The notes under the pieces were generated by a model. That model worked only from the letters and a program-made list of their open reading frames with translations. It was not told the DNA's origin and did not search any database. This document shows, piece after piece, positions 3,868-45,176 of a stretch of 64,000 nucleotides of DNA. The position numbers and the translations under genes are program-made. The stretch is taken from contig CAMPDV010000015.1 of the NCBI GenBank assembly GCA_946699065.1, forward strand, positions 372,001 to 436,000, written 5' to 3'. Position 1 is the stretch's first letter, and every line of letters starts with the position of its first letter. Source of the DNA: Loxodes magnus. Its lineage: Eukaryota; Ciliophora; Karyorelictea; Loxodida; Loxodidae.

Positions 3868-3889
3868 CTTTTATGAATTGAGTTAAGTA

Positions 3890-7195: not shown

Positions 7196-7198
7196 TAA

Positions 7199-7232
7199 AG
7201 AGCTGCGCACCAACGAGAGTGCTACGCGCTCT
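7199..7232 (+). other. 3' hairpin shared by element B and the LINE
   Basis: AGAGC...GCTCT with inner complementary GCGCAC/GTGC-type pairing, followed by CTATAATCAAATTTA. Found at 7199-7232, 57296-57330 (LINE) and, reversed, about 59208-59242. Stem-loops at this position are known recognition sites of LINE reverse transcriptases. Confidence 0.65.
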
Positions 7233-7259
7233 ATAATCAAATTTATTTATTTATGAGGC

Positions 7260-18813: not shown

Positions 18814-21800
18814 ATGTAGATAAGCAACTTTGCAAATCTACAAGTCTTATTATTGATGCTCTAAGCTTCTCTCTCCTAGCCTCAAAACTAGGATATCTAT
18901 GTTACAATACCTTTATTAAAGAATGAACTGCATTTTATTGGAAATAAAGGCACTTTGGAAAATCCGTTTATAAGCATAGAACAAGCGTTATAAATTCCCT
19001 AGAAAAGCTTATAAACTAAAATTTGAATATCTCCTCATTCCCATTAACTAAATTGCTCTATAAATTGAGATGTTTGCGAGCTATTAAGAGGAAGTAATAC
19101 AGAGCAAGGACCTAAAAATATAATAATAAAAAAGTTTGATTGTGAATAAAATGATTGAGTTTAAACAATGTGCTTTAATAGCAGAAAAATAGCCTATATT
19201 TTAATTAAAAGTCCTTTAGTTACTTTAGAGCTTTGTTAAGATACGCTAGTTATATAAGATATTACATTTATTGGTGATTTCCAACCTTGCTTAGAAAATA
19301 ATTGTAAGAAATATAACGAAAATATATTAATAAGCGCTTAGAGTTCCAATCTATAATTAATAAACTCATCTTTTTAGAACTTTTATCAATAATTCTCATA
19401 ATATCTTTACATCTAAAACTCAAATTTAAGCCTAACTAACGTACTCGTTAAATCAATTAGTATTGGTCCCTTTGGATATTTCTTAAAAGCGATCTCATCA
19501 AATATAAGCTTAAATAGATGTGATTTCATAGAAATCTAAGGAGACTTAATTGTAAGTTAAGAGAGTATTTTAAAAATTAAAGAATCAGTGTTTAATAATA
19601 GCATTGCACAATTGAATTCTATATATTTAGTATAATGCTTATTTGAGCTGTCGAATTCTTTTTTCTATAATAACAAAATTATATATCAGTCTGCTATATG
19701 AATGGATAGCTCTACTGCTAATTTATTCCTTTGCTTGTTCTTTAATAATTCAGCGAATTCAGGAAATGGGATCATTATTGCTTAAAGTTCAGAAATAATT
19801 CTTAATGGAAGTCAATTCATTTAAAATAATGCTTTAGATGGAGGAGCTCTTTATTTCACTTAATCAACAAATTTGATAATCTTAAACTGCCTATTTTAGT
19901 CTAACGTTGCTTATCAAAGAGGTGGAGCAATAGTAATAGATTAATCTTAATTAGTCTCGTTTGAAAGTAACTAATTTTTAAACAATTAAGCTAATATATC
20001 AGGAGGAGCAATTTTTGCTTAGTTAAGCTTCATAACCTTAATAAAAAATTGCACTTTTATAAATAACAAGGCACAGGATTCTGGAGGAGCTATATATATC
20101 TAAGAATCTAATGTAACAGCAATTTTAAATACTTCAGCTTAAAATAATCTAGCTGAAATTTCGAATGGAGGATTTTTAAGTTCCTTATAATCAAAATTTG
20201 ATTTAATACAATATAATTTATTACAGGAGAATAAAGCTTAAAATAATGGTAGTGCTTTTTCCTTTTAATAGAGTGAAATTATTTCTATAGATAATAACAT
20301 TTTCAGGTCTAATTTTGCATATCTTTTAGGGGGAAGTATTAGCTTTGCTAATTCGACAGTAGATTATATTTCAAGCAATTCTTTTATTTCAAATTGAGCC
20401 AATTACTTTGGAGGAGCTATAAGTATATATAATAGCAGTATAAATTGGATCGTTAGTTGTTTATTTAAAAACAATTAGGCGGATTAGTTGTATTGTGGAG
20501 CTTTGTTTATCTAAACAGCAAACGTAACTTACATTTCTAATAACGTAGCTTTACAAAATTCTGCTAAGAATGGAGATGGAGGCTTCATGTGCATTGTAGA
20601 TACTTCTTTAAACTATTTGCAGAATAATTAATTTTTATAAAATAATGCTTCTTAAGCCGGAGGGGCTTTGTTGATTTATAAAAGTTGAGTGAATATCATT
20701 TCTAACAATTTTTTTGAAAAGAACGAAGCATAATATAAAGGAGGAAGTATCTGCTTCTAATAAACTTGAATAAATATCTTTAAAAATAATTCCTTTGTAT
20801 AAAACTAAGCTTAGTTTGGAGGGGCTATTTATGCAAGTTAGCTTTATATAAAGTAAATATCTAATAGCAATTTTAATAAAAATAAAGCAAATTAGTCTGG
20901 TGGCGCTTTATTTGTTGATCAGTCATAAATAGGAATATTTATAAATATAACTGGCTTTTTAAATATTGCTCTTAAATCAGGTGGATTACTTCTTTTATAG
21001 TAATCAAGTTTAGAACTAGTAGCTGATAGTATATTCGAACAAAACAAAGCAAGTTATAGCGGAGGAGTTTTTTATCTAGTAGATGTAATAATTAATATTA
21101 CGTAATCAAGCATATTTTAGTAAAATAGTGCAGAAATTGAAGGTGGAGCAGCTTATTTTGAAAATGTCTAAATAAATTTAATTGATAATTAGTTTTATCA
21201 TAATACCGCTTAAAAATACGGGGGAGCTATAAGTGCTATAAACTCTATTTTCTAAACTTTTAGAAATTGCGAATTTGTTGGTAATGGAGTGACTATGTTT
21301 TGTGGAGGAGCTATCTTTTTATAATATTCATAAACAGATAAAATCTCAAATATCAGAGCTAGGAATAACATCGCAGAAAAAGAAAATGGAGGATTTGCTT
21401 GCTTTTAATGAACTAACTTTTCCTCCATAATAGATAGTACTTTTATTTAAAACTCAGCTTAGCAAAAAGGAGGAGTTTTTTACATCTTAGCACATTAGTC
21501 ATAAAGATCTAGAATAAGTAGTTGTGGTTTTATGCACAATACAGCAGAACAAGGAAGCGCTGCTTATTTTTCTTAAATTAGCTTAAATTTAACTGATTTA
21601 GTGATTATACAAAATAACGCTTTACAAAATGGAATTATATTCCTTAGCTAATTAACAGCCGAAATATCAAATGTATCAGTTTCTAGTAATTTTGCTTAAA
21701 GGGGGGCTTTTTTATACAGTTTTGGTTCTAATTTTACAATAAAAAATATAGTAAGCTAAAATAACTCTGCTTAAATAGGAGGAGGAGCTATTTATTCTGA

Positions 21801-24800
21801 AAAAAGCTATTTGGAAATTCAAAATTTCACTGGCTTAAAGAATTAAGCTTAGTATGGAGCCTGCTTATACTTAGAAAATTCTACTGCCTACATTTTTAAC
21901 GCTTATATAATAGAAAATAAAGCAGATATATATGGAGGGTTTTTATTTGGTTAGCTAGCAACTGTTTATTTAAATTAGAGCGAAATACGAAACAATAACA
22001 GTACTAATACTGCTGTAATATACTTATCTAAATCATATCTAATTCAATCTACCAGTTAGATAATTCACAATTTTGCTTAGTATGGGTCAGTTATTACCTT
22101 AATTTAGACTAAGGCTTTTCTGGGGCTAATTAAGTTTGAAAATAATACTGCTGAAAACGGAAATGTAATAGAGGCGAGTATATCAGATATCTTGCATTTA
22201 GATAGCTGTAAATTCATTAGTAATAAAGCCTATTCAGTTATAAGTTCGCTTTACATAAGTTAATTTTATATAAATGAAAGTGAGTTTAGCAATAACTAAG
22301 CCAAATATGGAGTCATCGAAAATAAAAATACATACTTAGAAGCTTGGAAGACTACTATGCAGCATAATGCTATTAATATTGGAGCTCTTATAGAGGTTTT
22401 TAATTAGAACTTTTTGATTTCAAACTGCACTTTATTTAAAAATATAGCAAAATAAGGTTTCATGGTTTCTCAGAAATATTCGCAATCCATCATTTAATAG
22501 ACCAGATTCGAAGGAAATGAAGGATTTAAGGGAGTGTCCATATAATCTCAGCTATCTTCATATTAAATACTCAACTGCAGTTTCTTAAGTAACATAGCTT
22601 TGTATTCTGGTAGTTTGATTGAAGCTAATCAAGACTATATCTAAATGGAAAATTGTGATTTCTTTAATAACTCTGCAGAAAATGGAGGTATAATTTCATT
22701 CTAGTAAGTAATAGGTAGTTTAAGCTTCATTAATAGCTATTAAAATAAAGCAAGTGTTGGAGGTACACTGAAAGCTATTGATTCTTAAATAGTAGTTTAT
22801 AGTTCGTTATTTAAAGACAACTTAGCATAATATGGAGCTGTTTTTTACATCTAAAAGACTAATCTAAACTTTTATTCAGTTTCTTGTGACAGAAACTAAG
22901 CATCAAAGTATGGAGGAATAGGTTACCTTTAGCTAGATAGTAAATTCCAGGCCAGAAATTGCGATTTTGTGAACAACTTCGCAAATGAAGGCGCCTTTTT
23001 ATATTTGCAAGGTTCTTGATTAAACCTAGACAGCGTACTTATTACTAATAATACTGTTAAATCTATGGGTATTATTAATCTATGAACTTCGGGAAAGGAA
23101 AGATGAAATAAGATGTGTAACGTAAAGATCTATAATAACTATGGCTATAATTCAATAGTCTTTGCTTATAAAAGCTTAATAAAGCTTGAAAACGCTACAT
23201 TTCATTAGAACTAAGCTTAAGAACTTACTTCAGGTATCTTGATATGAGACTCTTAGCTTACTATAACTAACTCTTCGTTCTATGACTAATAGGCGTAAAC
23301 AGGCACGTTTATAATGAGCGACTTTTCAGCTGAAATAGAAATAATAGATTCTTAATTCAAAAATGGAAAAGGAAAACTAGGAAGCGCCTTTTATTTAACT
23401 AACTCAACACTAAATTTAAGTTAAACCAAATTTCTAGGCATGAATTCTAACCAGGGACTTATTTATAGTAGCTAATCTAAGCTAAAAATATCACAAGTGA
23501 TATTTCAAGATAATAACTCTACTGAATAAGGTTCAATTATGTATATAAAAGAATCTTAAATAGTAATGGAAAATTGTTTGCTAAGTAACTATACAAGCAC
23601 TGCTATTTACATTGAAAGCAGTTAAGCAAATTTCAGTGGCAATACATTTATCCATGGTGAAAGCCATGAAAGTTATGGAAGTGCTATTTATTCTAAAAAC
23701 TCTCATCTAAATATGTAAAGATGCAGATGTTCGGATTAAAAAGCATAGACAGGCTCATGTTTTGCGATCTTAAATGATAAGCCACAATAATAGTATTTCT
23801 TTACTAGCAACTCGTTTTAAAATTGTTAGGCAAAGTAGCATGGAGGTGTAGGATTTGTTCAGAATGCAAATGTAATTTTCATAAAAAACTTATTTTAGGA
23901 CAATAAAATAGATAGCGAGTAAGAGTCTAAAGGAGGAGCATTAAGACTTATTTGTGATAAATACTGAAAATGTGACTATACACTTGACAATAATTAATTC
24001 ATCAATAACCAAATAAAAAGCAAATTAGGGGAAGGAGGCGCAATTTCATTTTAGGGAGTCTTTCCTAATTTTGTTCCCTAGTTAGAAGATAATTAATCTT
24101 GTCTTCTATACTAAAATAATTCAGCATACTATGGAAATCATTTTGCATCTTTCGCTTTTAAACTAGCAAATAGATCAACCGATGAAGTTTTATCTCACTG
24201 CTATAAAGGAAAATCAAATAGATAAATAACCAATTAACTGCCAGGCTTTTAATCTCCTCCTTCTATATTCTATATTGTAGATATATTTGGGCAAACCGTG
24301 AAAACTGACGAAAACTCTTACGTTACAATATACTCAGACGATGATGCGCAGATAGCTGGTAAAACGAGAGTATATGCTGAGCAAGGAGTTTTTAATGTAA
24401 GTGATATTATAATAAAAGCTAAACCAGGAAACTCTATTAACTTGAAGCTAGAAACTGATGCCATTGACAAATCAAATGTATTTGCAAACATAAGTTCTTT
24501 AAATGTAATCGAACTGAAACTGAATATCACAAGTTGCTTACGTGGCTAAATCTTAGTAGATGGAATATGATGTCAAAACTGCTTATATGGATAATATTCT
24601 TTGAATATAAACTAAAACTCGTGTAAAGAGTGTATGAAAGGTGCTCGATGCTATGGTAATGATTTAGTGTTACCAATTAAAGGATATTGAAGATAAAACT
24701 AAACTACGGAAATAATTCATAAATGTCCTAACTAATATTCTTGCTTGGGTTCTTAATTAAGATACAGCTTCATTTAAAAATATATCCAACTAACAGATCA

Positions 24801-26967
24801 GAGGCAAAGAGAAGGTAAATAGTAGCAAATAAAGTGAACAGGTTATTGTGAAAAGGGATATAAAGGAACTTTATGCGACGTATGTGAGTAAAATTGAACG
24901 AAAGATGGTCTTAGCAATTGCTAAAAATGTCTAGAACGAAATTCGAGCATAATTTTGGCTTTATTCCTTTTTACTTTTTTTATACTCTATGTTATTTATT
25001 TAGTCAGATACACCTTAAAGTCAGCTTACGAATAAGATTCGTACTATGGTGTTTATTTCAAGATACTTACTAACTATATGCAGTTTTCGGTTCTGATTTA
25101 AAACTTTAAGTTTAACTGACCGAAAGCATTAAAAGAAATATTCTAGATAAATAGTCAATACATAAGCACAACTTCGAGTATCTTTAGATTTGAGTGCATT
25201 TATAGTGAAGGAGAGTAGAGATACTATGACAAAGTGATATTTTCTTTATCTGCACCTTTCATAATTTTAGTAGCTTGCTTACTGCTTCTATTTCTCTACT
25301 CTCTATTAAGCAGAAAGCTATTCAGTTAAACAGTATTTATTACAATAATGAGTGTTACTTTCTTCTAGCTTATCACTAATCTAATACTTACTGTTTTTAG
25401 TGCTTTCAGCTGTTATGAAATTTCATAAGACTTTTATGTTTTAAATGCCTATACTGACATCGAATGCTGAAAGGGAAAGCATCTATAGTTTGTCCTAAGC
25501 TTTGCGTTACCTGGACTTATGCTGTATGGAATTTTAGTTCCTTTGATAGTAGCTTTATATCTATACAAAAAGCGACATGTTATTAAGACCATTCTGATTA
25601 AATCTTAATTTGGGTTCTTAACAATAGGCTTTAACGAGAAGTTCTATTACTGAGAGTTCGTAAAAATGTATGAGAAATTTGCAATTTCTCTGATCTTCAT
25701 TTTCCTATAGAACGCTACTATAATCTTCTAATTTTGGTGTCTTATCTTAATCCTAATAATTTGCATTTATCTCTAACTTAAGTTCAAGCCTTTTGTGAAG
25801 GAAGAGCTAAACACCTTGGAAACTAATTACCTGCTTATTTCCCTTTTCATTTTGTATTGTGGTACTTACTTCGATTCAGGTCAGAGTTATCAAGTCGTTG
25901 ACCTTACCATCTTCATCCTTTTAGCTTTAGTAAATGGATTTTATATCTAAAGTTGGATTCGTTAGGTTATCATAGAGTTTGGCTATGAAATGTAGCAAAT
26001 GTCTATTAAATGGTATTCCTACCTAACCTGCTTTCATAATAAAATTCCATTAAATGATCTAGTAGATAAATGAATGAACCAAGAAAAAATTAGCAAGAAA
26101 CAGAAAAAATCAAACAAGCAAGAAAGAACCAGCCAGATAGACTAGGATTATTATGACTTAGACTAAGATAATAAACACTTTAAAAGGTTGTATGGAGCTT
26201 GCTAGTAAGATGGCTTAGCTAAGTGTTTCAAATAAATGGAATGATTTCTTTTACTAGATACTAGTTTGCTAGATCTTTATAACCAAGTAAACCAAAGCCT
26301 TTTATTAACTTAGTCTAAATACTGAAATAAAAGAGTTAAATTATTCCTTCAAAAGTACAAAAACAGAAAACTCTAAGATAAGACGTATCAGAGTAACTAA
26401 TAGACCTTTTAAATGCCAATACGAACTGTTAAAGTCGATAAAATAGATCACAGTATGGATAAATGTAATGTTAGCAGAGAGAAAGAGGATTTTATTATAG
26501 AAGACTTATAGGATGAAAAAGGAAATTAATTAAGAGAATCCAAAAATACTCTATAGACAGATGAATATTCATAAGTTTATAACAAAGAACAAATTAGACT
26601 TTAACTATCACTTCTCAAGAAGAAAATATAAACCAATAAATGCAATTTTTAAACAAAATAAGCATGACTATAAGACGAAACTTATTGAGATCAATAATAA
26701 AACACCAACTTGCAAATGCACGCATAAGTAATCAACTATAGTGAATTTAATTAACCAAACGATCAAACCTAAACTTCTTTTATGATGAGGAAGAAAAAGC
26801 AGGAGAATAAAAATTTCGAGGAGAGGATGAAGCTTGAGAATAGCAGATTTAGTTAAATATTATATTTTAATATTCCAAAATATATGAAAATAATAAGTCT
26901 ATCAAGTTAATTCTTTTTACTCAATTCTTTGTTTAGAAACATTGCAACTAAATTTGCTAGGTTATGA
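18814..26967 (+). CDS. Giant beta-helix/7-TM surface protein, left copy (about 2,717 aa)
   Basis: Start ATG 18814, then a signal peptide (VLLLMLQASLSQ). From residue ~30 to ~1830 there are dozens of parallel beta-helix turns of the form NN-x-A-x-x-GGA(I/L)-(Y/F), as in pectin-lyase-fold and chlamydial Pmp-type proteins. Then comes a Cys-rich module (GIWCQNC, CKECMKGARCYG, GYWRQNQ, CPNQYSC, CEKGYKGTLCDVC; residues ~1910-2045), about seven hydrophobic spans to ~2400, and a Lys/Gln-rich cytosolic tail. GYWR modules before a membrane domain are common in ciliate surface proteins. The Trp of GYWR and of GIWC is TGA. The first in-frame TGA after the tail is at 26965. Likely on the plasma membrane; ligand unknown. 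From codon ~410 on, the DNA is almost identical to 37038-43965. Confidence 0.85.
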
Positions 26968-27988
26968 GTAACTAAAGCAATTTTAGTTCTTACTAAATAT
27001 CTAGCATTTTATCCTAGTTAGTTATAAACTTGCTAATAGAAATTAAGAAAGCTATTTCAGTATACTGTTACTAAGCAAAATAGTGAAAGTCTATAAGCCT
27101 AGGCTGCAATATTTAGATTTAAATGATTGCTAAGTAAAGAAGAGCTGATTAAAATTTCTTCACTTAATATAGAGCTTGTACTAGGGTAACTAAGTTGAGA
27201 AATAGAAATTTTAGAAATTCGTAATTGCGCTTTTTGAAATATGCAAGAAGAAGAAATGCTAAGCATTCAAATTCGATTTACTTTGGTTTTTTATAAAAAA
27301 CACTTTACATAGAATAGATGAAAGCTTTTTGCTAAACAACTGACCTTTCTGTCATTGGGTACCTAACTAAACTTTCTTTTCCAGCTTTAGAGAAACTTAT
27401 TTTATATTGCTTTTCTCGGAACTTATAAACTTCAATTATGAGAGCTTTCTATTTAACTGCATAGCAACCAATTTAAAAGATTAAGAATTAAAAGCTTTCA
27501 TAAACTAATTTTAAAAGAGCAGTATTGTAATCAGTCTTCAAGCTTAGTGGTAGATCCCTAGCTTAAGGTATTTAGAACTAATATCTTCAATAAATAACTC
27601 AGGTATCAAGAGTATAGCTTAAGAAAGAGATTAATGGAATTTAGCTTTAATCCAGATTCTAGCTAAAGCTATTTGATTTCGAAGCTTAGATACGATTAAT
27701 GCTAAAGAGTATGTTTGCAAATATATCAAAATTTTAATTTATCGTAGATTAAAGGTACTAAAGCTTAATACTTAGGTTAGATAGCTTTAATACGAATAAG
27801 AGGAGCATTACTAGTAGACTATTAAGATGAGATAGAATATAAGCAAATATTATAAAAAAGGATTTATCACAAGATTTATCAAAGAACTTGAAGAAAACTA
27901 AATGATAAAGAAAGCTTTTAGAATTATCTTCAAAAGGTAGAGCTGTTTATTACATTTCAGAAGCATAAAAATTAATTATATAAAGCTG
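20040..27988. repeat. Left arm of a near-perfect 7.95-kb inverted repeat
   Basis: Every position x pairs with 64005-x in reverse complement at 36017-43965. I noticed only four base differences (near 21780, 22133, 24831 and 26721) and no indel. The outer boundary lies inside the giant surface gene, where both sides continue as homologous but diverged coding sequence. The inner boundary lies in the LRR frame, which continues here but is cut off in the other arm. Confidence 0.95.
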
Positions 27989-28399
27989 CAAGATAAGCAA
28001 AAGAAAAAATTAAAGTTGAGAACATATTAAGATTTGAATATCAAGCTTATTAACTTTGTAAATTTATTTAGAGTAAGAAAGACAGAATTTCAAGAAAGAA
28101 TTAATAATACAAATGGAAATATTTTAAATAGCATACGACTATAAATAAAAAAGTTCTTAGATCTTTTAAATCTAATTAAAATACATAAAGTTATAGCAAG
28201 ATACACTTATTCTTATCAAAACTTTAATAATTATCTTTGCTTAACTAAGATTAATTCTAAAATTTAGCATTCAAATGATTCCTTTTAATTTAATTTAAGA
28301 TGCATAATTTTTGTTAAATCAAGGAAAACTTTTAAATCAATTTATGTATTTTTATCTCTTTTGATACTTTGTATATAGTAAATTAAAATAGACTTATGA
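26880..28399 (+). pseudogene. Leucine-rich-repeat reading frame behind the left surface gene, no clear start
   Basis: A continuous frame (shifted by one base from the surface gene) gives leucine-rich segments such as LCLETLQLNLLGYEQLKQF, RLQYLDLNDC and SLRYLELISSINNSGIKSIA, typical of RNI/LRR proteins, and ends at TGA 28397-28399. No in-frame ATG precedes the first repeats, and its 5' end overlaps the end of the surface gene in another frame. It may therefore be a 5'-truncated gene, a gene whose start needs a frameshift, or an extension of the surface gene. Coding character continues past 27988, so this is the undisturbed copy. Confidence 0.5.
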
Positions 28400-28468
28400 T
28401 TAAAAGTTTCTATTTATAATTTAACTTAGTCGTAGTTCTTAATAGCTTCCCAGATCAAAAATTTCTAT

Positions 28469-31389
28469 ATGGATTGATTTAAAATAATTTGAAATAAATC
28501 AGAGCTTCGAAATAAATTTAATAAGCCTGCGTTCTTGGACATAACTCTACGATTGTATTTTAATGATCTAAACTACTAAAATGTTGAATATAATTAGCTA
28601 GAAAAGTATAAGAACTTAGTATTAGAACTATACAAAATTACTTTATCTATATCTGGATTAATACTCCATTCTTCTGCTCGTTTATTATTAATGATTGAAG
28701 ACAAAAAATAATAGTATGATGTTCTTCGGATTCTTCCTATAAAAATGGAATAATCACTACTAAAATTAAACTTTTACATCTACTTCTGATTGCTCAATCA
28801 AACCGTTTTAAGAAGGTAACTTGCTTAAATACTACTGCTATAATTTAATATCACCTTGTTATACCTTAAATACTTTACTTTTTTCTTCTTTGACTTACTA
28901 AATTGAATTTTCTTCTTAAGATTTTAAGCATAAAAGGGTTAGAGAGCTGAATAACACCATAACACCCTCATTATAAATAATGTATATCTAGCTAATTTTT
29001 TATACCTCTTAACTATGTTTTCATTTATATAGGTTGCATACTATCATTCCTATCAAACTTGCTTGTAGCTCAAAGCTTTTTATTATACAGTTAGATACAT
29101 TGTGTATATAAATTTTTGCTCTTAATTAATTTTGCTACTGAAAAGAGATATCAAAGTTTAAAACCTAAGTTACTTTGTATCTAAAATAAGAAAATGCGTC
29201 TATGTAAAAAGTGTAAGAAGTAGAAATTTTGGAAATATAAGAAGCAAGGAAAATTAATAAAGAGAGAAAGAGATTAAATCTAGTGATTTTTACGTAACAC
29301 TATAGAAATTTAGTGATATATGAATATTAATTCAGAGCTAATTTAGTAATACAGGAAAGTAGTGCTAAAGCATAGCACTTAAATGCGTTATTTAGAAGAT
29401 TCTAAAACATAATTATACTGAATAACTTCAAAATAGTACTGGAAAGATAAAAGTTTCAAATGATATTAGAAATAAGTTCGTTACTATAAAATATTAAAAG
29501 CCAAGCCATTTGGAATAAAAGCAACCTAAAAGAGCTCACTATCTGTTTAAAGAATTTATTCTAAGAAAATGAATCATAATACCAGAAATAAGATATTTAT
29601 ATTAAAGGAGATATGGAAAAGACTAGCTGAGAGAGTCAAATAGAGTAATTTAATTAAGAGTATTGATTTGCATTGAATTTAGTTATTATTAGATAGAAAT
29701 TTAATGTTTGGATATGGTTAAAAGATTCATTTCGATTTAAAGTAAATTAATTAAAAATTAAGCCGAAATATAAGTATTTTTGTCGGCTATATATGTTTAT
29801 ATTTTGCTTTAAATAAGGGAATAAATGATTTTGAGAGTTACTAAGTGCTTACTAAATAAGAATCTGAAGTATATCTTTAGCTTCTTTCGTATTCTATTTA
29901 TGATAAAATACTTTAGAATTTTTCCAGCACATTAATTATCTTATATCTAAATCTATCTAATAAACGAGAACATAAGTAGTATATTGATACCCTATTAACA
30001 AACTCGAATATTAAATTTGGTGGATAGATCTATAATAAATTATTGTAAGATACATATATTGACTTCTGTTCTAAATTTGATTTTGTTAATTCAGATTAAT
30101 TAAAATACTAATTATATAATAATTAAACAAGCAATAGTTATAAAAGTTATTTCAACTTATCTTATCCCTTATTCTTTATCATTCTATTCTTTATAATCAA
30201 TATCTAGTGCTTAATTCCATAAATACATCACTTTCAGATATATTAATATTTATATTAATGCCATTTACTTTTCTATCCTATAAGCTCATATTTCGATTAA
30301 AGGATTGAATCCTTATCCAAAGAAATGCTTTCTTTATTGCCAAAATTTAAGATATAATTACTAAGCAGTAGGCTATTTTTATCATATCTGATTGTTATTA
30401 AACTTAGTATTCAATTTGGTTGTACTCTAGATTAAGTATTGCTAGAAGTTCTTTTATTTAGATGTGTTACTTAATTAAGGTTGAGTTGTATAATTTCTAA
30501 CTACCTTTCATAAACATTTATATAATTTCAGTTTAGTTACTATCTTATAAAAATAATACCTAAAAGCATTTTATGCAGATTTAATTCCTTAGTGATAGTA
30601 ATATCAATCATATATAACACCTTGTAATATGAATTTAAATAAATAAAGCACAAGCTTAAATTAATAGCTTAGATAGGTTAAGGCACTAATAAGGAAATAA
30701 TAATGAAAGGTTCGTTGCTTAAATATGAAAAGATATTTGAAATGATCTTTGACAGTTAATAAAATAGATATATAAAATTACTAGACTAAGATTAAAGATC
30801 TTTATTGGAGATCAACTAATTTTAGAGATTAAGAATAGTAAAAGATTTACTAATATTATTCAATTGAATCTTCTCTTTCTTTTCCCCCACCTTGTTTATA
30901 TTAAGTTAAAGTTATTAATTGAGTATAAAGGAATCTCTTATGCTTTTATTTTATTACTATTTAATATCTATTATTTGTCTTTATAATTTGGTGGTTACTA
31001 ATTCCATAATAGCTGTCTAAATATACCTTATTATTGTATGAACTTTGCTATATCTATCTTTATCAACTACTTCGCAAATAAAAAATAAGATAAAATGTAT
31101 TTGATTTGTTTATCTAGCCTGTATAACTTTAATTACTATATAAATATATTTAATCCCTATAATCTAACTGTATTTATTCCAATAAACTCATTTAGTTTAT
31201 CACTAGATAAGAGTTAATAACTGAGAGTTGTTCTATAAATGACTTCTATAATTAATGCTAATAATTTCATTATCTAACTTATCTTCTTAGTATTTCTCTT
31301 TTAGTATAAGCAACGTAGAGTCTTTTGTTCTTTATTTTGATGTTCTCTACTCCATTTACTAAATATCTTATTTTTGCTAGTAGATATGA
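28469..31389 (+). CDS. Large multi-pass membrane protein with one apparent frameshift
   Basis: Starts at ATG 28469 (MDWFKIIW). Coding character is strong in this frame to about 29560 (hydrophobic spans near YLKYFTFFFFDLLNWIFFL and LYLLTMFSFIQ) and continues without break in the next frame (positions congruent with 29194) to TGA 31387-31389. That part has further spans: LSYPLFFIILFFIINI, LILFNWIFSFFS, and a hydrophobic run near 30930-31090. The frame change near 29560 has no recognisable intron. It is either a frameshift or an indication that the gene starts at a later ATG (29566, MNHNTRNK). The family was not recognised; it is one of several similar membrane genes in the window. It ends 70 bp before the actin ATG. 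Confidence 0.55.
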
Positions 31390-31459
31390 TAAAGAAAGGT
31401 GTAAGCGGAAGTAAAATGATTTATCTTATATGATTTTATTATTTTTATAGTTAAAAGAA

Positions 31460-32587: not shown

Positions 32588-33399
32588 GTGTAAACTATAT
32601 TCAAGTGCGAAGTCTTTAGGAGGATAAGTTTAGAGCTTATTCTTGAACTAAGCTTTTGCACAAACTTTTTCTTCTTAATTTATGAAAGCATTCTAATTCT
32701 TCTTTTAACATATCACTCATACATTATATCTTGGAATATTAAGTTTATCCTTTAAACATGTTTAGTAATATTAAATATCCGTCTATGAACTTCTACTCTT
32801 TTAGCTATTTTAGTTATAATATTTTATTTTTAATGCTAAGTTTAAAGCAGAAATATTTAATAAATATAAGAGAATAAAAGTTAAAACATCTTGAACAATA
32901 AATAAAAGGAAGCATCTAGAAATTGCATGACGATAATAAAGCTAAGTAATTGTATTTTTAAAACTTTACTTTGTAACCAAAATTTTAAGAAGCTCAATAA
33001 TTATCATTTTGGTTATTTAAATTTTAGTGAACTATAAAATAGAAAAGATATGAAAGTAAATAGAGAAATAATTTACTAAAATCTTAGTTGATGATTCTTT
33101 CCAATAATATGATACACCAAAAAAATATTTTTTCCTATACAAATATGAATTTGAAGGCTATTTTCATATAGAGGAAAATGTGATTTATTTGAAATAAATA
33201 AACTTCAATCATTTAAGTTGAATGAAGAAAGTGAATCAAATAATTTAGGTAAGATCTAAATAATTGACTATTAAAAACATGGAGTTATTTTGCTTTTCAA
33301 CTCTGTAAAATTGAGTTGTATGAGATCAATAGTTTAAATAATAATAGCCAAGATAATTTTTGTTAAGTATAGATAATTTTTATATTAGTTTATGCTGTT
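32588..33399. other. Intergenic region between convergent actin and SDR genes
   Basis: About 810 bp of AT-rich sequence between two convergent stop codons. It should contain the 3' UTRs and polyadenylation signals of both. No reading frame of protein-like composition and no repeat was seen. Confidence 0.5.
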
Positions 33400-34419
33400 T
33401 CATTCTTTCTTTCCTGCTTCCTATTTCTACTTGCTTTTTTCTATCATCTTTTTCATTGTTTTATTCATCTGACTATCGGTTATACAAGAAGCACAAGGAA
33501 TGTTTTCATATGCCCATTTCTAAAAAGCATGGAGCCAATGTCCTTTTGTAAAGCTCCTTCTTCCTAGAGCTTTCATTGCTCCACTTACTGCTTGAGGTAC
33601 TTAAACGTATGTTTTGAATTTAACAGCTCTAGATTGAACAAGGTTTGGTGAGAAGCATAGAAAATCTATTTTCCCATTATCTATGCTTTAAGATTCCAGC
33701 TGTAAAGTTTCAGTCAACTATCTAATATAAGCCTTGCAAGCTCCGTATGTAGCTGTTCCTAGATTGGGTATTGCTGAGAGTCCTGATCCTAGATTAACTA
33801 TCGCTGACTTCTTATTTCTCTTAAGCATAACAGGGATAAAGTACTAGCTTAAGAAAGTAGTACTTAATATATTCTTAGCTATAGTCTAGTAAGATGTGTT
33901 CATAGTCTCTTCTTTAAAGTAATTGGGATCTGCAGCAGTTCCTCCTATATTGTTTATTAGAATAGCAATATCCAATTTCTCTAATTATGAATAGAGCCCT
34001 TGGTAAAAGCTTAAAGTGATGGTATTGAAATCTGCCACTATTACTTAAGTCTTTACTTAATACTTTTTCTCTAGCTCCTATGCTTTAGCTTCTAGACTTT
34101 ATTTATTTCTACTCAACAGACAAATATTGAACTTCTTCTCCGCAAAGAAATTGGCAAATCCCCATCCAAGACCATCTGTAGCTCCTGTTACAACAACCCA
34201 TGAATCTTTATCAAAGTATTATTTTCTGAAGTCGATATGAGACTGTAAAACATAATGCCAAAACCCACTTAAGAAATCCATTAGGAGTTGAATAATTTGG
34301 TACAAGCCTATAATCACAAACGCGTAAAAGCAGTACCTAGTATATTAGCAGTTAGACAGCTAATCTTAATAATGGTAATAAGCATATATTGCGATGGCTA
34401 ATAGAATAGCACTTTTCAT
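33400..34419 (-). CDS. Very-long-chain 3-oxoacyl-CoA reductase / 17-beta-HSD12-like SDR, 339 aa
   Basis: Start ATG 34419, stop TGA 33400-33402. An N-terminal hydrophobic segment (residues ~1-60) is followed by an SDR Rossmann domain: TGATDGLG (TGxxxGxG, near 85), NNIGG (the NNxG motif), catalytic Ser in NLGSGLSA, and the YxxxK pair in TATYGACKAY. A lysine-rich tail ends GKKE. Length and membrane anchor fit the KAR/Ifa38/HSD17B12 family, which reduces 3-ketoacyl-CoA with NADPH in fatty-acid elongation at the ER; the substrate is inferred from the family and could be a steroid. Catalytic residues are all present, with no frameshift or intron. Many TAA/TAG codons are read as Gln. It is divergent to the membrane gene fragment at 34430. 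Confidence 0.88.
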
Positions 34420-34429
34420 TTCTTTAAGG

Positions 34430-36016
34430 ATTTATTAATTACCTTAATTAATTAAATACAGCAGCTTTAACTTAGGCATTCTAAAGCATAGCTAGAACCT
34501 ATTTATTTTATATTTTAAATCTTTAGCTTTAATATTAAACTAGAGATTAAGATTTGCTCTAAAAGGAGAAAAAGCTAGTAGAGAAGACTCTCGTCTAAAA
34601 AGGAGATCTAGAACTGTATAGCAATCAAGTCTTTAAGTAGTTAATATATAATTTATGCTTAGTTAGTTATGAAGATTAATAATTATTAGCCAGCTTTAAA
34701 GACTTATACAAGCAAGATAAGCCATAGATTGATAGCCACTTTCTTAGTTATTTATAAAATCTAAAATTAAAAAGCTAGATCTGCTTACTTATTATGATGC
34801 TTCAAACGTATCAAATATATAAAGAAAGCTATTTTCAAAGGTTTAAATCTTAGTGTTGCTCAATAACTAAATTTTAGAATGACTTAAGAATTTTATTTCT
34901 GACTTCGAGTTTCCATACTTTGATGTATTTGGTTAAAATTAAAGATAAATAAGCTGAAGATAACTTATAAAGATAGGTAATAAAAGAAATTCTAAAGCAT
35001 GAATTCTCATAAATACAGTAGATAATAGTAAAGCATATTGATGAATCCTTTAAGCTTTATATCTAAAATAAAGATATTTTCTTATATACAAATGGAAGAT
35101 TTACTATAATTAAAAATAAGAAATTTAAGTAGAAGTAGAGGGAATATAAAAAGGAAAGAAGCAAACATAAACAGTTGAAAGCTAATATCTGCCTTAGGAG
35201 TTTCTAAGGATCTAAGTATTCTAAAATTCTGTCAAAGTCCTTTAAGAATAAGTATTTGTTTGGTTTATCAGTGTAGATACATCTACGTCTGTAAATAAAT
35301 ATATCCTTTGCATTTTTAGTTGTATTTAGTATTTTTCAAGTATAGTTATTTGATGATTATGGTTATTTCTATAATACTTAGTTGTATGAAGAGATATAGA
35401 TAATAGGATTTGAACATAAAAAGTAACCAAATTATAGTAAAATAATAGAAAACGGAGTTATTTTGGTAATTTAATTAAGTAACAAAATTATAAGGATATT
35501 AAGACATAGTTAAAAGGATTTTTCTAGTCAATATTTACATACATATAGCTATCATATTACAAGTTCTTTTGGTATTAGAATCAATAATTATAATTCGAGT
35601 TAATAAAGTCTAATTAGAGTAAATACTTATATATAATAAATGATTCTTTAGATTAAATAAAATTAATTGAAAAATATAAAAGGTTTTTAGTATAAAAGGA
35701 TAAAAATTAACAAATTGGGGATACTTTTAGCTATAACTCAAGAAGAAATTGATATACAAAGTAATATCAATTAAAAAATCTCCTTATATTCTAATATTAG
35801 GATATTTAAGAAAAATCTACGAAAGATGGAATCAAAAAATAAAGCATTATATTTATAATATGAGACTCTCTTATCACATTTTAAATAAAAAATCGTTAAT
35901 TTTCAATATAAGGCTTAGCAAGCCTTTCAAGTTACAAATATTATGAAGCTAATTAATTTATTATAATATATCTACTTCTATATCCTCTATATTCATAATA
36001 ACTACATGATTTATTC
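34430..36016 (+). pseudogene. Membrane-protein gene truncated at the right arm boundary
   Basis: A long plus-strand frame of protein-like composition runs from about 34430 (FINYLNQLNTAALTQAFQSI) through 35960, with a hydrophobic span near 35305 (NISFAFLVVFSIF) and segments such as LFDDYGYFYNTQLYEEIQ and GIRINNYNSSQQSLI. No clear start ATG was found; the first part overlaps the upstream region of the SDR gene. The frame stays open across 36017 but there enters the antisense of the right arm, so its original 3' end is missing. Unrecognised; similar in style to the other membrane genes here. Confidence 0.4.
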
Positions 36017-37125
36017 CAGCTTTATATAATTAATTTTTATGCTTCTGAAATGTAATAAACAGCTCTACCTTTTGAAGATAATTCTAAAAGCTTTCTTTAT
36101 CATTTAGTTTTCTTCAAGTTCTTTGATAAATCTTGTGATAAATCCTTTTTTATAATATTTGCTTATATTCTATCTCATCTTAATAGTCTACTAGTAATGC
36201 TCCTCTTATTCGTATTAAAGCTATCTAACCTAAGTATTAAGCTTTAGTACCTTTAATCTACGATAAATTAAAATTTTGATATATTTGCAAACATACTCTT
36301 TAGCATTAATCGTATCTAAGCTTCGAAATCAAATAGCTTTAGCTAGAATCTGGATTAAAGCTAAATTCCATTAATCTCTTTCTTAAGCTATACTCTTGAT
36401 ACCTGAGTTATTTATTCAAGATATTAGTTCTAAATACCTTAAGCTAGGGATCTACCACTAAGCTTGAAGACTGATTACAATACTGCTCTTTTAAAATTAG
36501 TTTATGAAAGCTTTTAATTCTTAATCTTTTAAATTGGTTGCTATGCAGTTAAATAGAAAGCTCTCATAATTGAAGTTTATAAGTTCCGAGAAAAGCAATA
36601 TAAAATAAGTTTCTCTAAAGCTGGAAAAGAAAGTTTAGTTAGGTACCCAATGACAGAAAGGTCAGTTGTTTAGCAAAAAGCTTTCATCTATTCTATGTAA
36701 AGTGTTTTTTATAAAAAACCAAAGTAAATCGAATTTGAATGCTTAGCATTTCTTCTTCTTGCATATTTCAAAAAGCGCAATTACGAATTTCTAAAATTTC
36801 TATTTCTCAACTTAGTTACCCTAGTACAAGCTCTATATTAAGTGAAGAAATTTTAATCAGCTCTTCTTTACTTAGCAATCATTTAAATCTAAATATTGCA
36901 GCCTAGGCTTATAGACTTTCACTATTTTGCTTAGTAACAGTATACTGAAATAGCTTTCTTAATTTCTATTAGCAAGTTTATAACTAACTAGGATAAAATG
37001 CTAGATATTTAGTAAGAATTAAAATTGCTTTAGTTACTCATAACCTAGCAAATTTAGTTGCAATGTTTCTAAACAAAGAATTGAGTAAAAAGAATTAACT
37101 TGATAGACTTATTATTTTCATATAT
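35993..37125 (-). pseudogene. Leucine-rich-repeat reading frame behind the right surface gene, 3' truncated
   Basis: Mirror copy of 26880-27988. After the arm boundary at 36017 the frame reads only seven further codons before a TGA at 35993-35995, whereas the left copy continues for about 135 more codons. The LRR frame was therefore cut when the right arm was formed. It has the same missing start as the left copy. Confidence 0.5.
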
Positions 37126-40100
37126 TTTGGAATATTAAAATATAATATTTAACTAAATCTGCTATTCTCAAGCTTCATCCTCTCCTCGAAATTTTTATTC
37201 TCCTGCTTTTTCTTCCTCATCATAAAAGAAGTTTAGGTTTGATCGTTTGGTTAATTAAATTCACTATAGTTGATTACTTATGCGCGCATTTGCAAGTTGG
37301 TGTTTTATTATTGATCTCAATAAGTTTCGTCTTATAGTCATGCTTATTTTGTTTAAAAATTGCATTTATTGGTTTATATTTTCTTCTTGAGAAGTGATAG
37401 TTAAAGTCTAATTTGTTCTTTGTTATAAACTTATGAATATTCATCTGTCTATAGAGTATTTTTGGATTCTCTTAATTAATTTCCTTTTTCATCCTATAAG
37501 TCTTCTATAATAAAATCCTCTTTCTCTCTGCTAACATTACATTTATCCATACTGTGATCTATTTTATCGACTTTAACAGTTCGTATTGGCATTTAAAAGG
37601 TCTATTAGTTACTCTGATACGTCTTATCTTAGAGTTTTCTGTTTTTGTACTTTTGAAGGAATAATTTAACTCTTTTATTTCAGTATTTAGACTAAGTTAA
37701 TAAAAGGCTTTGGTTTACTTGGTTATAAAGATCTAGCAAACTAGTATCTAGTAAAAGAAATCATTCCATTTATTTGAAACACTTAGCTAAGCCATCTTAC
37801 TAGCAAGCTCCATACAACCTTTTAAAGTGTTTATTATCTTAGTCTAAGTCATAATAATCCTAGTCTATCTGGCTGGTTCTTTCTTGCTTGTTTGATTTTT
37901 TCTGTTTCTTGCTAATTTTTTCTTGGTTCATTCATTTATCTACTAGATCATTTAATGGAATTTTATTATGAAAGCAGGTTAGGTAGGAATACCATTTAAT
38001 AGACATTTGCTACATTTCATAGCCAAACTCTATGATAACCTAACGAATCCAACTTTAGATATAAAATCCATTTACTAAAGCTAAAAGGATGAAGATGGTA
38101 AGATCAACGACTTGATAACTCTGACCTGAATCGAAGTAAGTACCACAATACAAAATGAAAAGGGAAATAAGCAGGTAATTAGTTTCCAAGGTGTTTAGCT
38201 CTTCCTTCACAAAAGGCTTGAACTTAAGTTAGAGATAAATGCAAATTATTAGGATTAAGATAAGACACCAAAATTAGAAGATTATAGTAGCGTTCTATAG
38301 GAAAATGAAGATCAGAGAAATTGCAAATTTCTCATACATTTTTACGAACTCTCAGTAATAGAACTTCTCGTTAAAGCCTATTGTTAAGAACCCAAATTAA
38401 GATTTAATCAGAATGGTCTTAATAACATGTCGCTTTTTGTATAGATATAAAGCTACTATCAAAGGAACTAAAATTCCATACAGCATAAGTCCAGGTAACG
38501 CAAAGCTTAGGACAAACTATAGATGCTTTCCCTTTCAGCATTCGATGTCAGTATAGGCATTTAAAACATAAAAGTCTTATGAAATTTCATAACAGCTGAA
38601 AGCACTAAAAACAGTAAGTATTAGATTAGTGATAAGCTAGAAGAAAGTAACACTCATTATTGTAATAAATACTGTTTAACTGAATAGCTTTCTGCTTAAT
38701 AGAGAGTAGAGAAATAGAAGCAGTAAGCAAGCTACTAAAATTATGAAAGGTGCAGATAAAGAAAATATCACTTTGTCATAGTATCTCTACTCTCCTTCAC
38801 TATAAATGCACTCAAATCTAAAGATACTCGAAGTTGTGCTTATGTATTGACTATTTATCTAGAATATTTCTTTTAATGCTTTCGGTCAGTTAAACTTAAA
38901 GTTTTAAATCAGAACCGAAAACTGCATATAGTTAGTAAGTATCTTGAAATAAACACCATAGTACGAATCTTATTCGTAAGCTGACTTTAAGGTGTATCTG
39001 ACTAAATAAATAACATAGAGTATAAAAAAAGTAAAAAGGAATAAAGCCAAAATTATGCTCGAATTTCGTTCTAGACATTTTTAGCAATTGCTAAGACCAT
39101 CTTTCGTTCAATTTTACTCACATACGTCGCATAAAGTTCCTTTATATCCCTTTTCACAATAACCTGTCCACTTTATTTGCTACTATTTACCTTCTCTTTG
39201 CCTCTGATCTGTTAGTTGGATATATTTTTAAATGAAGCTGTATCTTAATTAAGAACCCAAGCAAGAATATTAGTTAGGACATTTATGAATTATTTCCGTA
39301 GTTTAGTTTTATCTTCAATATCCTTTAATTGGTAACACTAAATCATTACCATAGCATCGAGCACCTTTCATACACTCTTTACACGAGTTTTAGTTTATAT
39401 TCAAAGAATATTATCCATATAAGCAGTTTTGACATCATATTCCATCTACTAAGATTTAGCCACGTAAGCAACTTGTGATATTCAGTTTCAGTTCGATTAC
39501 ATTTAAAGAACTTATGTTTGCAAATACATTTGATTTGTCAATGGCATCAGTTTCTAGCTTCAAGTTAATAGAGTTTCCTGGTTTAGCTTTTATTATAATA
39601 TCACTTACATTAAAAACTCCTTGCTCAGCATATACTCTCGTTTTACCAGCTATCTGCGCATCATCGTCTGAGTATATTGTAACGTAAGAGTTTTCGTCAG
39701 TTTTCACGGTTTGCCCAAATATATCTACAATATAGAATATAGAAGGAGGAGATTAAAAGCCTGGCAGTTAATTGGTTATTTATCTATTTGATTTTCCTTT
39801 ATAGCAGTGAGATAAAACTTCATCGGTTGATCTATTTGCTAGTTTAAAAGCGAAAGATGCAAAATGATTTCCATAGTATGCTGAATTATTTTAGTATAGA
39901 AGACAAGATTAATTATCTTCTAACTAGGGAACAAAATTAGGAAAGACTCCCTAAAATGAAATTGCGCCTCCTTCCCCTAATTTGCTTTTTATTTGGTTAT
40001 TGATGAATTAATTATTGTCAAGTGTATAGTCACATTTTCAGTATTTATCACAAATAAGTCTTAATGCTCCTCCTTTAGACTCTTACTCGCTATCTATTTT

Positions 40101-43100
40101 ATTGTCCTAAAATAAGTTTTTTATGAAAATTACATTTGCATTCTGAACAAATCCTACACCTCCATGCTACTTTGCCTAACAATTTTAAAACGAGTTGCTA
40201 GTAAAGAAATACTATTATTGTGGCTTATCATTTAAGATCGCAAAACATGAGCCTGTCTATGCTTTTTAATCCGAACATCTGCATCTTTACATATTTAGAT
40301 GAGAGTTTTTAGAATAAATAGCACTTCCATAACTTTCATGGCTTTCACCATGGATAAATGTATTGCCACTGAAATTTGCTTAACTGCTTTCAATGTAAAT
40401 AGCAGTGCTTGTATAGTTACTTAGCAAACAATTTTCCATTACTATTTAAGATTCTTTTATATACATAATTGAACCTTATTCAGTAGAGTTATTATCTTGA
40501 AATATCACTTGTGATATTTTTAGCTTAGATTAGCTACTATAAATAAGTCCCTGGTTAGAATTCATGCCTAGAAATTTGGTTTAACTTAAATTTAGTGTTG
40601 AGTTAGTTAAATAAAAGGCGCTTCCTAGTTTTCCTTTTCCATTTTTGAATTAAGAATCTATTATTTCTATTTCAGCTGAAAAGTCGCTCATTATAAACGT
40701 GCCTGTTTACGCCTATTAGTCATAGAACGAAGAGTTAGTTATAGTAAGCTAAGAGTCTCATATCAAGATACCTGAAGTAAGTTCTTAAGCTTAGTTCTAA
40801 TGAAATGTAGCGTTTTCAAGCTTTATTAAGCTTTTATAAGCAAAGACTATTGAATTATAGCCATAGTTATTATAGATCTTTACGTTACACATCTTATTTC
40901 ATCTTTCCTTTCCCGAAGTTCATAGATTAATAATACCCATAGATTTAACAGTATTATTAGTAATAAGTACGCTGTCTAGGTTTAATCAAGAACCTTGCAA
41001 ATATAAAAAGGCGCCTTCATTTGCGAAGTTGTTCACAAAATCGCAATTTCTGGCCTGGAATTTACTATCTAGCTAAAGGTAACCTATTCCTCCATACTTT
41101 GATGCTTAGTTTCTGTCACAAGAAACTGAATAAAAGTTTAGATTAGTCTTTTAGATGTAAAAAACAGCTCCATATTATGCTAAGTTGTCTTTAAATAACG
41201 AACTATAAACTACTATTTAAGAATCAATAGCTTTCAGTGTACCTCCAACACTTGCTTTATTTTAATAGCTATTAATGAAGCTTAAACTACCTATTACTTA
41301 CTAGAATGAAATTATACCTCCATTTTCTGCAGAGTTATTAAAGAAATCACAATTTTCCATTTAGATATAGTCTTGATTAGCTTCAATCAAACTACCAGAA
41401 TACAAAGCTATGTTACTTAAGAAACTGCAGTTGAGTATTTAATATGAAGATAGCTGAGATTATATGGACACTCCCTTAAATCCTTCATTTCCTTCGAATC
41501 TGGTCTATTAAATGATGGATTGCGAATATTTCTGAGAAACCATGAAACCTTATTTTGCTATATTTTTAAATAAAGTGCAGTTTGAAATCAAAAAGTTCTA
41601 ATTAAAAACCTCTATAAGAGCTCCAATATTAATAGCATTATGCTGCATAGTAGTCTTCCAAGCTTCTAAGTATGTATTTTTATTTTCGATGACTCCATAT
41701 TTGGCTTAGTTATTGCTAAACTCACTTTCATTTATATAAAATTAACTTATGTAAAGCGAACTTATAACTGAATAGGCTTTATTACTAATGAATTTACAGC
41801 TATCTAAATGCAAGATATCTGATATACTCGCCTCTATTACATTTCCGTTTTCAGCAGTATTATTTTCAAACTTAATTAGCTCCAGAAAAGCCTTAGTCTA
41901 AATTAAGGTAATAACTGACCCATACTAAGCAAAATTGTGAATTATCTAACTGGTAGATTGAATTAGATATGATTTAGATAAGTATATTACAGCAGTATTA
42001 GTACTGTTATTGTTTCGTATTTCGCTCTAATTTAAATAAACAGTTGCTAGCTAACCAAATAAAAACCCTCCATATATATCTGCTTTATTTTCTATTATAT
42101 AAGCGTTAAAAATGTAGGCAGTAGAATTTTCTAAGTATAAGCAGGCTCCATACTAAGCTTAATTCTTTAAGCCAGTGAAATTTTGAATTTCCAAATAGCT
42201 TTTTTCAGAATAAATAGCTCCTCCTCCCATTTAAGCAGAGTTATTTTAGCTTACTATATTTTTTATTGTAAAATTAGAACCAAAACTGTATAAAAAAGCC
42301 CCCCTTTAAGCAAAATTACTAGAAACTGATACATTTGATATTTCGGCTGTTAATTAGCTAAGGAATATAATTCCATTTTGTAAAGCGTTATTTTGTATAA
42401 TCACTAAATCAGTTAAATTTAAGCTAATTTAAGAAAAATAAGCAGCGCTTCCTTGTTCTGCTGTATTGTGCATAAAACCACAACTACTTATTCTAGATCT
42501 TTATGACTAATGTGCTAAGATGTAAAAAACTCCTCCTTTTTGCTAAGCTGAGTTTTAAATAAAAGTACTATCTATTATGGAGGAAAAGTTAGTTCATTAA
42601 AAGCAAGCAAATCCTCCATTTTCTTTTTCTGCGATGTTATTCCTAGCTCTGATATTTGAGATTTTATCTGTTTATGAATATTATAAAAAGATAGCTCCTC
42701 CACAAAACATAGTCACTCCATTACCAACAAATTCGCAATTTCTAAAAGTTTAGAAAATAGAGTTTATAGCACTTATAGCTCCCCCGTATTTTTAAGCGGT
42801 ATTATGATAAAACTAATTATCAATTAAATTTATTTAGACATTTTCAAAATAAGCTGCTCCACCTTCAATTTCTGCACTATTTTACTAAAATATGCTTGAT
42901 TACGTAATATTAATTATTACATCTACTAGATAAAAAACTCCTCCGCTATAACTTGCTTTGTTTTGTTCGAATATACTATCAGCTACTAGTTCTAAACTTG
43001 ATTACTATAAAAGAAGTAATCCACCTGATTTAAGAGCAATATTTAAAAAGCCAGTTATATTTATAAATATTCCTATTTATGACTGATCAACAAATAAAGC

Positions 43101-43965
43101 GCCACCAGACTAATTTGCTTTATTTTTATTAAAATTGCTATTAGATATTTACTTTATATAAAGCTAACTTGCATAAATAGCCCCTCCAAACTAAGCTTAG
43201 TTTTATACAAAGGAATTATTTTTAAAGATATTTATTCAAGTTTATTAGAAGCAGATACTTCCTCCTTTATATTATGCTTCGTTCTTTTCAAAAAAATTGT
43301 TAGAAATGATATTCACTCAACTTTTATAAATCAACAAAGCCCCTCCGGCTTAAGAAGCATTATTTTATAAAAATTAATTATTCTGCAAATAGTTTAAAGA
43401 AGTATCTACAATGCACATGAAGCCTCCATCTCCATTCTTAGCAGAATTTTGTAAAGCTACGTTATTAGAAATGTAAGTTACGTTTGCTGTTTAGATAAAC
43501 AAAGCTCCACAATACAACTAATCCGCCTAATTGTTTTTAAATAAACAACTAACGATCCAATTTATACTGCTATTATATATACTTATAGCTCCTCCAAAGT
43601 AATTGGCTCAATTTGAAATAAAAGAATTGCTTGAAATATAATCTACTGTCGAATTAGCAAAGCTAATACTTCCCCCTAAAAGATATGCAAAATTAGACCT
43701 GAAAATGTTATTATCTATAGAAATAATTTCACTCTATTAAAAGGAAAAAGCACTACCATTATTTTAAGCTTTATTCTCCTGTAATAAATTATATTGTATT
43801 AAATCAAATTTTGATTATAAGGAACTTAAAAATCCTCCATTCGAAATTTCAGCTAGATTATTTTCAGCTGAAGTATTTAAAATTGCTGTTACATTAGATT
43901 CTTAGATATATATAGCTCCTCCAGAATCCTGTGCCTTGTTATTTATAAAAGTGCAATTTTTTATT
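36017..43965. repeat. Right arm of the 7.95-kb inverted repeat
   Basis: Reverse complement of 20040-27988 with the few base differences listed there. The inner edge at 36017 joins a truncated membrane gene (34430-36016). The outer edge at 43965 lies inside the surface gene, where homology to the left copy continues at the protein level only. Confidence 0.95.
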
Positions 43966-45176
43966 TATAGAATGCTACTTTGAAATGCAAAAAGCGCACC
44001 TCCTATAAATTATACATAATTGGTAATAAACTAATTGTTCTCCAAAGAGACCATTTAAGCTTGGAATAAAAATATACTACCACCACCCCCTTATGCATTG
44101 TTAAGCTAAAATATACAGTTTAAAACTTCCAATCTTGTCGATTTTTCAATAAAGATAGCTCCACCATTTTTTGCCGTATTATTGATGAACTTATTTCCCT
44201 TAACACTCATTGATGAGTTCTTCGCCTAAATAGTTCCGTCGCTATTTGTTGCTAAATTATTAGAGAATTAGCTTAGGAGTATTTGAATGGAAGAATTATT
44301 CAATTATATAACAGAATATTATAGAGCTGTGTTATTATCAAATCTAGAGTTTACTATTTCTAACGAGGAATCTTCTAAGAGTAATGAACCCTATCCCGCA
44401 GTATTTTTATAAAAATTCGATCTTAGAATTGAAAAATTACTACTCAAGCCTAAAATAATATTTCCTTTGTTTTCAATAAAGCTACAATTATTTAAGCTGA
44501 TGTTTGATTTTAAAGATAATAGAAATTATCCAGATGTTTGGACGCTGTTTTGTCAAATAAACACGTTAATTAGAATAAAATTTGAGTCTTTAATGGAAAA
44601 ATATGATAAGAAGTCTGCCTAAAAGTTTGTAAAAGATGAGTTTATAAGTGTTAGACTGGAATTATTTGCTTTTATTAATGTATTATTTTTATAATCTTCA
44701 CAGTCCATATTTTAACAGGACTCGAATTTACCTCTAAATACAACATCTTATATAATAAGCTTTTCTTAAAAAAGTATCAAAGTAATGGAAGGATCTTAAA
44801 TCGAAATTTAAGCTATTTTGATGCTATTTTTGCACATTGTTTCAACTAATTCCTGTTCACAATCAAACTTTTTAATTATAATATTTTTAGGTCCTTAGGT
44901 TGCATCATTTTCTATTAGAATTTCGCAAGTCTCTTCATCTCCAGAGCATTCTAGTTCATGATCATGAGGAGATATTCAAATTATATTTTTTTAGTTTTAT
45001 TTAGTCATTTATAGTGCTTTTTCTATGCTTACTAATGGTTCTGCCAAAGTGCCTTATTACAAAGCGTTATAAACTGAGGGTGATGTAACATAAATTTCCT
45101 AGTTCTGAGATTTTGGAAGAAATGCAAGGAGTAATAAAACTAAGATAATTAGATTTGTATACTTACTCATCCACAT
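37038..45176 (-). CDS. Giant beta-helix/7-TM surface protein, right copy (about 2,712 aa)
   Basis: Paralog of 18814-26967 in opposite orientation. ATG at 45176 (or the second Met at 45170) begins a good signal peptide (KYTNLIILVLLLLAFLPKSQ). Residues ~30-405 are homologous to, but clearly diverged from, the left copy: shared landmarks are QEIYVT, a GTL-x-x-P-x-x-SIE block, ISPH, and GPKNIIIKKFDCE. From residue ~405 on (43965 downward) the two are virtually identical, including the beta-helix, the Cys-rich GYWR module, seven membrane spans and the tail, down to the TGA at 37038-37040. Predicted surface protein; function unknown. The open frame over more than 8 kb argues that both copies are functional. 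Confidence 0.85.

Follow-up and report, generated by a model that had tools for sequence, protein, structure and literature searches.

The paired genes and their products

The window analysed here is a stretch of 64,000 nucleotides of a Loxodes magnus contig (CAMPDV010000015.1, positions 372,001 to 436,000), and was read with translation table 27, the karyorelict code, in which TAA and TAG stand for Gln and TGA for Trp or stop (the double meaning of TGA is given in the excerpted text of PMC11441545). With this table, two convergent continuous frames are obtained, starting at 18,814 (gene A) and at 45,176 (gene B); a standard-code reading of the window was rejected because table 11 gave no ORF of 150 amino acids. 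Both genes look complete, and their lengths (~2,717 aa for A and ~2,712 aa for B) agree with the original prediction of two convergent genes of ~2,715 residues, their ends being a few codons off those first proposed. The TGA at codon 2,718 of A (26,965-26,967; mirror positions 37,038-37,040) is probably the stop. In-frame TGAs of three relatives (L039, codon 2,690; L041, codon 2,687; L048, codon 2,666) lie directly after the last well-aligned stretch, where A carries none, and codon 2,718 was taken because it is the first TGA of A after these positions. Feature coordinates are listed in Table 1.

Table 1. Coordinates of the features of the paired genes and of the related fragment (positions of the window)
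Feature	Positions	Strand	Remarks
Gene A	18814-26967	+	Read with table 27; stop position probable; layout: signal-like N-terminus, Pmp-like beta-helix ectodomain, Cys-rich stretch, multi-TM region, tail
Gene B	37038-45176	-	Architecture as A; convergent to A
5' flank of A	18653-18813	+	Diverged, still alignable to B flank 45,177-45,339; blastn alignment starts at 18,653
Diverged head of A	18814-20039	+	Codons 1-409
Diverged head of B	43966-45176	-	Codons 1-404
Homogenised tract, copy 1	20040-27991	+	A codon 410 to ~1 kb past the stop
Homogenised tract, copy 2	36014-43965	-	Mirror of copy 1
Cys-rich stretch of A	24535-24930	+	Codons 1,908-2,039, before the membrane region
Multi-TM region of A	24931-25947	+	Codons 2,040-2,378; from hydropathy; conserved in the family
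Decayed body fragment	5655-6675	+	A codons 1,191-1,538, two reading frames
428-bp block	5782-6209	+	Identical to A 22,519-22,946

Pfam searches matched Beta_helix in B (2.6e-34) and Chlam_PMP in A (1.7e-9; below the cut-off in B), Beta_helix not being listed for A though the two bodies are nearly identical. No 7-TM family was found among the Pfam matches of A and B, and hydropathy profiles gave 6 distinct segments, or as many as 8 on visual inspection; of the beta-helix/7-TM architecture initially put forward, the beta-helix is thus upheld and the number of seven segments is not established. Weak similarity to DUF7630 was detected in the C-terminal part (Cys-rich stretch) of all 9 members compared (E up to 1; best value 8e-5, A itself 0.14). 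Sequence searches of the PDB returned nothing useful (no match in one search, one match at E 0.31 in another), and a structure predicted for the A head, starting at codon 28 and without relatives, had a pLDDT of 33.7, too low to be of use. The motif FxxN occurs 41 times in residues 1-1,800, for 14.5 expected, GGA[ILVF] occurs 13 times in the protein, and N-glycosylation-like sites number 51 in the first 1,980 residues versus 6 after. Taken together, the FxxN/GGA repeats, the beta-helix, the N-glycosylation-like sites and the multi-TM C-terminus suggest large surface proteins; A and B are predicted on this basis to be adhesins or receptors, whose N-terminal domain would face the ligand.

Repeated FxxN and GGA(I/L/V) motifs, a beta-helix-type ectodomain and the organisation in a multigene family are common to these proteins and to the trichomonad and chlamydial Pmps, whereas the Cys-rich stretch and the 6-8 TM segments after the ectodomain, as well as the size of ~2,700 aa, set A and B apart. 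According to the excerpted text of PMC6701047, the C-terminal transmembrane domain of trichomonad Pmps carries an ATPITK motif, and an autotransporter domain is present in the chlamydial proteins. No autotransporter domain was detected in A or B with Pfam (E up to 1), a multi-TM region occupying its place, so that A and B are Pmp-like in their ectodomain and not Pmps of the chlamydial type.

The spacer between the inverted copies contains a short-chain dehydrogenase gene (33,403-35,577, minus strand; adh_short 3.8e-24).

The step between diverged heads and homogenised bodies

The arms of the inverted repeat (19,789-27,991 and 36,014-44,216) show 106 differences in 8,203 positions. The first 251 bases (19,789-20,039) account for 97 of these and the remaining 7,952 for 9, of which 2 are synonymous, 4 are nonsynonymous and 3 lie past the stop. 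The switch coincides with the final base of A codon 409. The abrupt, mid-gene transitions originally placed at 20040 and 43965 are therefore exact to the base, and the near identity claimed for the remainder of both genes also covers ~1 kb past the gene; the divergence of the heads was likewise found, with the last head difference at codon 409 of A and not at 405 as first stated.

Over the 404 codons compared, the heads of A and B share 45% amino acid identity, with a dS of 0.74 and a dN of 0.41 (424 differences in 1,212 aligned bases). Synonymous changes amount to ~120 in 255 synonymous sites in the head versus 2 in the body (Fisher P ~3e-107, with a round estimate of 1,400 synonymous sites for the body), and chance is excluded as the source of the step. 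Upstream of the start codons, the flanks can be aligned over ~160 bases. Diverged homology is thus present on the 5' side, in the heads and in the 5' flank, and no similarity was found past 27,991. The distal end of the tract is consequently not bracketed by homology, and may correspond to the limit of the old duplication or to a join.

A decayed fragment of the body is found to the left of the pair. The fragment is ~82% identical to A alongside a 428-bp block of complete identity, with homology on both sides of the block, which is putatively a second conversion trace. The surroundings of the pair (2,102-13,261 and 48,421-59,702) form inverted duplicates in permuted order, with pieces 73-95% identical; on the left, the order is the 50,136-48,421 block, then the body fragment, then the 59,702-50,122 block. 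The heads of A and B are more diverged than any of these duplicated pieces, which means that the heads predate this duplication or that the pieces have since become homogenised. A Sec23/vWA-like gene (Sec23_trunk 3.1e-6) lies at 53,969-55,048 (plus strand) and has a left copy at 8,215-9,285 (minus strand); the two copies share 53% protein identity over this stretch and ~83% DNA identity in the wider segment, a possible sign of decay in one of them. A scripted search located no start for the gene near 52.6 kb.

Heads and bodies across the gene family

The genome searched consisted of 705,730,643 bases in 7,843 contigs. Using the A head as query, at least 102 scored places were retained from 1,415 candidates, and using the A C-terminal region at least 102 from 2,194 candidates; both counts may include alleles. 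The C-terminal region is 49-68% identical to A in 8 relatives. An identical head score (158.7 bits) was obtained at 15 places on 14 contigs (C2189, C2261, C2264 and others), which suggests that a head gene is part of a repeated unit present in many copies. An inverted arrangement of family members was not significant (22 of 35 neighbours within 60 kb in opposite orientation, P 0.18); contig C421 carries ten copies of the C-terminal domain, with 8 of the 9 neighbouring pairs opposite in orientation. Three members (L050, L051 and L043) have frame breaks inside the gene, and are decayed genes or contain very short introns. Among the titles listed by literature searches (ciliate Pmp, beta-helix seven-TM protists, Loxodes surface proteins, concerted evolution), none concerned this Loxodes family, and no paper was found on Loxodes gene conversion or on a ciliate mating type combining beta-helix and transmembrane parts.

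The direction seen in A and B (old head, younger body) is shared by L040/L041 (both on contig C253) and L039/L041, as a gradient and not as a step, dS falling gradually from ~0.5-0.8 in codons 1-600 to 0.13-0.32 in codons 1,001-2,600. For L040/L041, dS is 0.52-0.79 in codons 1-600, 0.39-0.53 in codons 601-1,000 and 0.13-0.27 in codons 1,001-2,600; for L039/L041, it is 0.68 in codons 1-600 versus 0.25 in codons 1,001-2,600 (P 9e-17). L041/L048 and L039/L048 show this gradient less strongly.

The heads of A and B are under net purifying selection: their maximum likelihood (ML) omega is 0.39, and 0.52 for codons 1-200, values that are less than 1 at P < 0.01. Omega in codons 1-200 is also below 1 in L039/L041 (0.58), L040/L041 (0.50) and L041/L048 (0.29). 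The pair L039/L040 (near-identical relatives on contigs C448 and C253), which are perhaps alleles, has patchy bodies (~74-100% identity per 100 bases). In its codons 1-200, nonsynonymous changes number 42 and synonymous ones 3 (omega 3.75, binomial P 0.011; the ML estimate is 3.06, P 0.039 against 1, and 2.94, P 0.051, for codons 24-200), versus 134:103 in codons 401-2,600 (Fisher 5e-7), these uncorrected P values applying to one of 13 windows in one of 5 pairs, tested after it had been seen.

This comparison was widened to 23 close pairs (at least 75% amino acid identity in one fixed frame), which are not independent. Omega in codons 1-200 was above 1 in one of them (L011/L012) and undefined in 3 with no synonymous change, most of the rest having few head changes; hypervariability of the heads is thus unsupported as a family-wide property. 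The set lacks L017/L018 and the L022 pairs, whose DNA is near-identical, probably owing to short introns or frameshifts; for L033 and L038, in which no start was found, reading began at about codon 50. In pairs from contigs C229, C538 and C421, conservation of the head equals or exceeds that of the body, and in L025/L036, L019/L021 and the C421 pair the heads share 95-100% DNA identity and the bodies are more variable. Mosaic identity blocks are present in other family pairs, with conversion breakpoints that vary among pairs and are not at one codon. Conversion patches are thus scattered over many positions; of the steps observed, that of A/B is the sharpest, and it does not mark a fixed cassette border.

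A system of alternative recognition heads on a common body, which the pair was originally said to resemble, is supported only in part: the fast head of L039/L040 speaks for it, and the omega of A and B, the reverse pattern on C229, C538 and C421 and the varying breakpoints speak against it. The dN/dS comparison of the two halves and of paralogue N-termini that had been proposed as a check gave a mixed answer, one pair at 42:3 in the head and A/B at 0.39.

Origin of the step and its significance

In partial ectopic gene conversion, or concerted evolution of paralogues, diverged sequence gives way abruptly to sequence that is identical even at synonymous sites. In A and B, there is an abrupt border between diverged and near-identical homologous sequence, and both synonymous and non-coding sites are homogenised. 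As protein constraint cannot homogenise synonymous sites and ~1 kb past the gene, DNA was copied; the step itself separates a body and ~1 kb beyond it, copied recently, from heads and an adjoining 5' flank that represent an older split. The heads look like unconverted remnants, because the B head is the best genome match of the A head (298 bits, the next match having 183; A head as query) and because the 5' flank can still be aligned. A head swap from another paralogue is unlikely, given this same best match. The divergence of the tract (0.11%) is below the heterozygosity of ~0.6% reported in the excerpted text of PMC11441545, which suggests a recent event. The relatives compared have a dS to A of ~1 or more, or saturated, and include no close outgroup, and the step is known from one assembly.

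Partial gene conversion or one-ended copying is considered the probable explanation. The partial conversion advanced in the original prediction is well supported by the abrupt switch, by the homogenisation that extends past the gene and by the mosaics elsewhere. A and B would be an old convergent paralogue pair of a large family of giant Pmp-like beta-helix, multi-TM proteins. A recent homology-directed repair event between the inverted copies, ~8 kb apart, would have replaced one copy by the sequence of the other, starting at codon 410 and reaching ~1 kb beyond the stop, where the shared sequence ends, by gene conversion or one-ended copying as judged from the sequence, and the heads and adjoining 5' flank would have escaped. 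The length of the tract (~8 kb), the inverted copies and the karyorelict host distinguish this case from general paralogue conversion.

One recent inverted duplication or break-induced copy, in place of conversion, is unlikely. The head-bearing stub of an old paralogue would have been fused, in the middle of the gene, with 8 kb of inverted sequence copied from the body and 3' flank of the other gene, up to a non-homologous join at 27,991, as the unrelated sequence on both sides of the distal end and the permuted inverted duplications of the region would allow. However, in-register joining inside homologous coding sequence requires homology, making this nearly the same event as conversion, and the internal mosaic blocks of the fragment and of the relatives have homology on both sides.

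Programmed switching, in which variable heads are mounted on a common body with silent fragments as donors, in the manner of variable antigens or mating-type genes, appears quite improbable. The 42:3 changes of L039/L040 and the decayed body fragment nearby are in its favour, but this fragment carries body and not head, both genes look complete, the breakpoints are not fixed, and the head data (omega of 0.39 in A/B, one of the 23 close pairs above 1 with 3 undefined, and the conserved heads of C229, C538 and C421) point the other way. An assembly artefact, by collapse or cross-polishing of the two bodies, is very improbable: the 7.9-kb inverted repeat is a hard case, and the assembly consists of unphased Falcon primary contigs polished with Racon (excerpted text of PMC11441545), but 9 private differences were kept, the step falls at one base, mosaics occur on other contigs too, and polishing reads were filtered for mapping quality according to the same excerpts. 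Purifying selection holding the bodies alike and leaving the heads free can practically be dismissed, for although codons 1-200 of three relative pairs have a higher ML omega (0.29-0.58) than the corresponding bodies (0.21-0.25), protein selection cannot erase synonymous and non-coding differences, and A and B keep only 2 synonymous body changes and 3 changes in ~1 kb past the gene.

Besides conversion of the A/B body, a recognition function was considered for one clade. It is doubtful, though conceivable, that this clade forms a Loxodes recognition system (self/non-self or prey) operating without the DNA editing used by other ciliates, in which a small N-terminal domain (codons ~24-200) would diversify under positive selection and repeated conversion would keep the beta-helix and membrane body uniform. 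Among ciliates, the MTA/MTB genes of Tetrahymena are also pairs with type-specific segments, a shared TM segment with Cys-rich furin-like repeats, and recombination within the shared part, as described in the excerpted text of PMC3608545. According to the same text, they are arranged head-to-head, and a germline array of incomplete pairs is joined and deleted in the soma, whereas A and B are convergent and both look complete; for Loxodes, the excerpts of PMC11441545 report that no extensive DNA editing was detected. A mating role for A and B would be an argument by analogy alone. The Paramecium surface antigens likewise constitute a large, recently duplicated family of ciliate surface proteins; as characterised in the excerpted text of PMC9788069, they carry a GPI anchor and periodic Cys residues, and their ends are more conserved than their middle; TM domains occur in one group. 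The predicted multi-TM C-terminal region of A speaks against a GPI-anchored surface antigen.

The A/B pair would thus represent a base-exact, apparently recent partial gene conversion within a family of giant membrane proteins, in a ciliate in which editing of the germline and somatic genomes appears to be largely absent. It indicates how giant genes can drift at their ends and yet keep a uniform body. The fast head of the relative pair L039/L040, should several strains confirm it, would provide a testable recognition candidate in karyorelicts.
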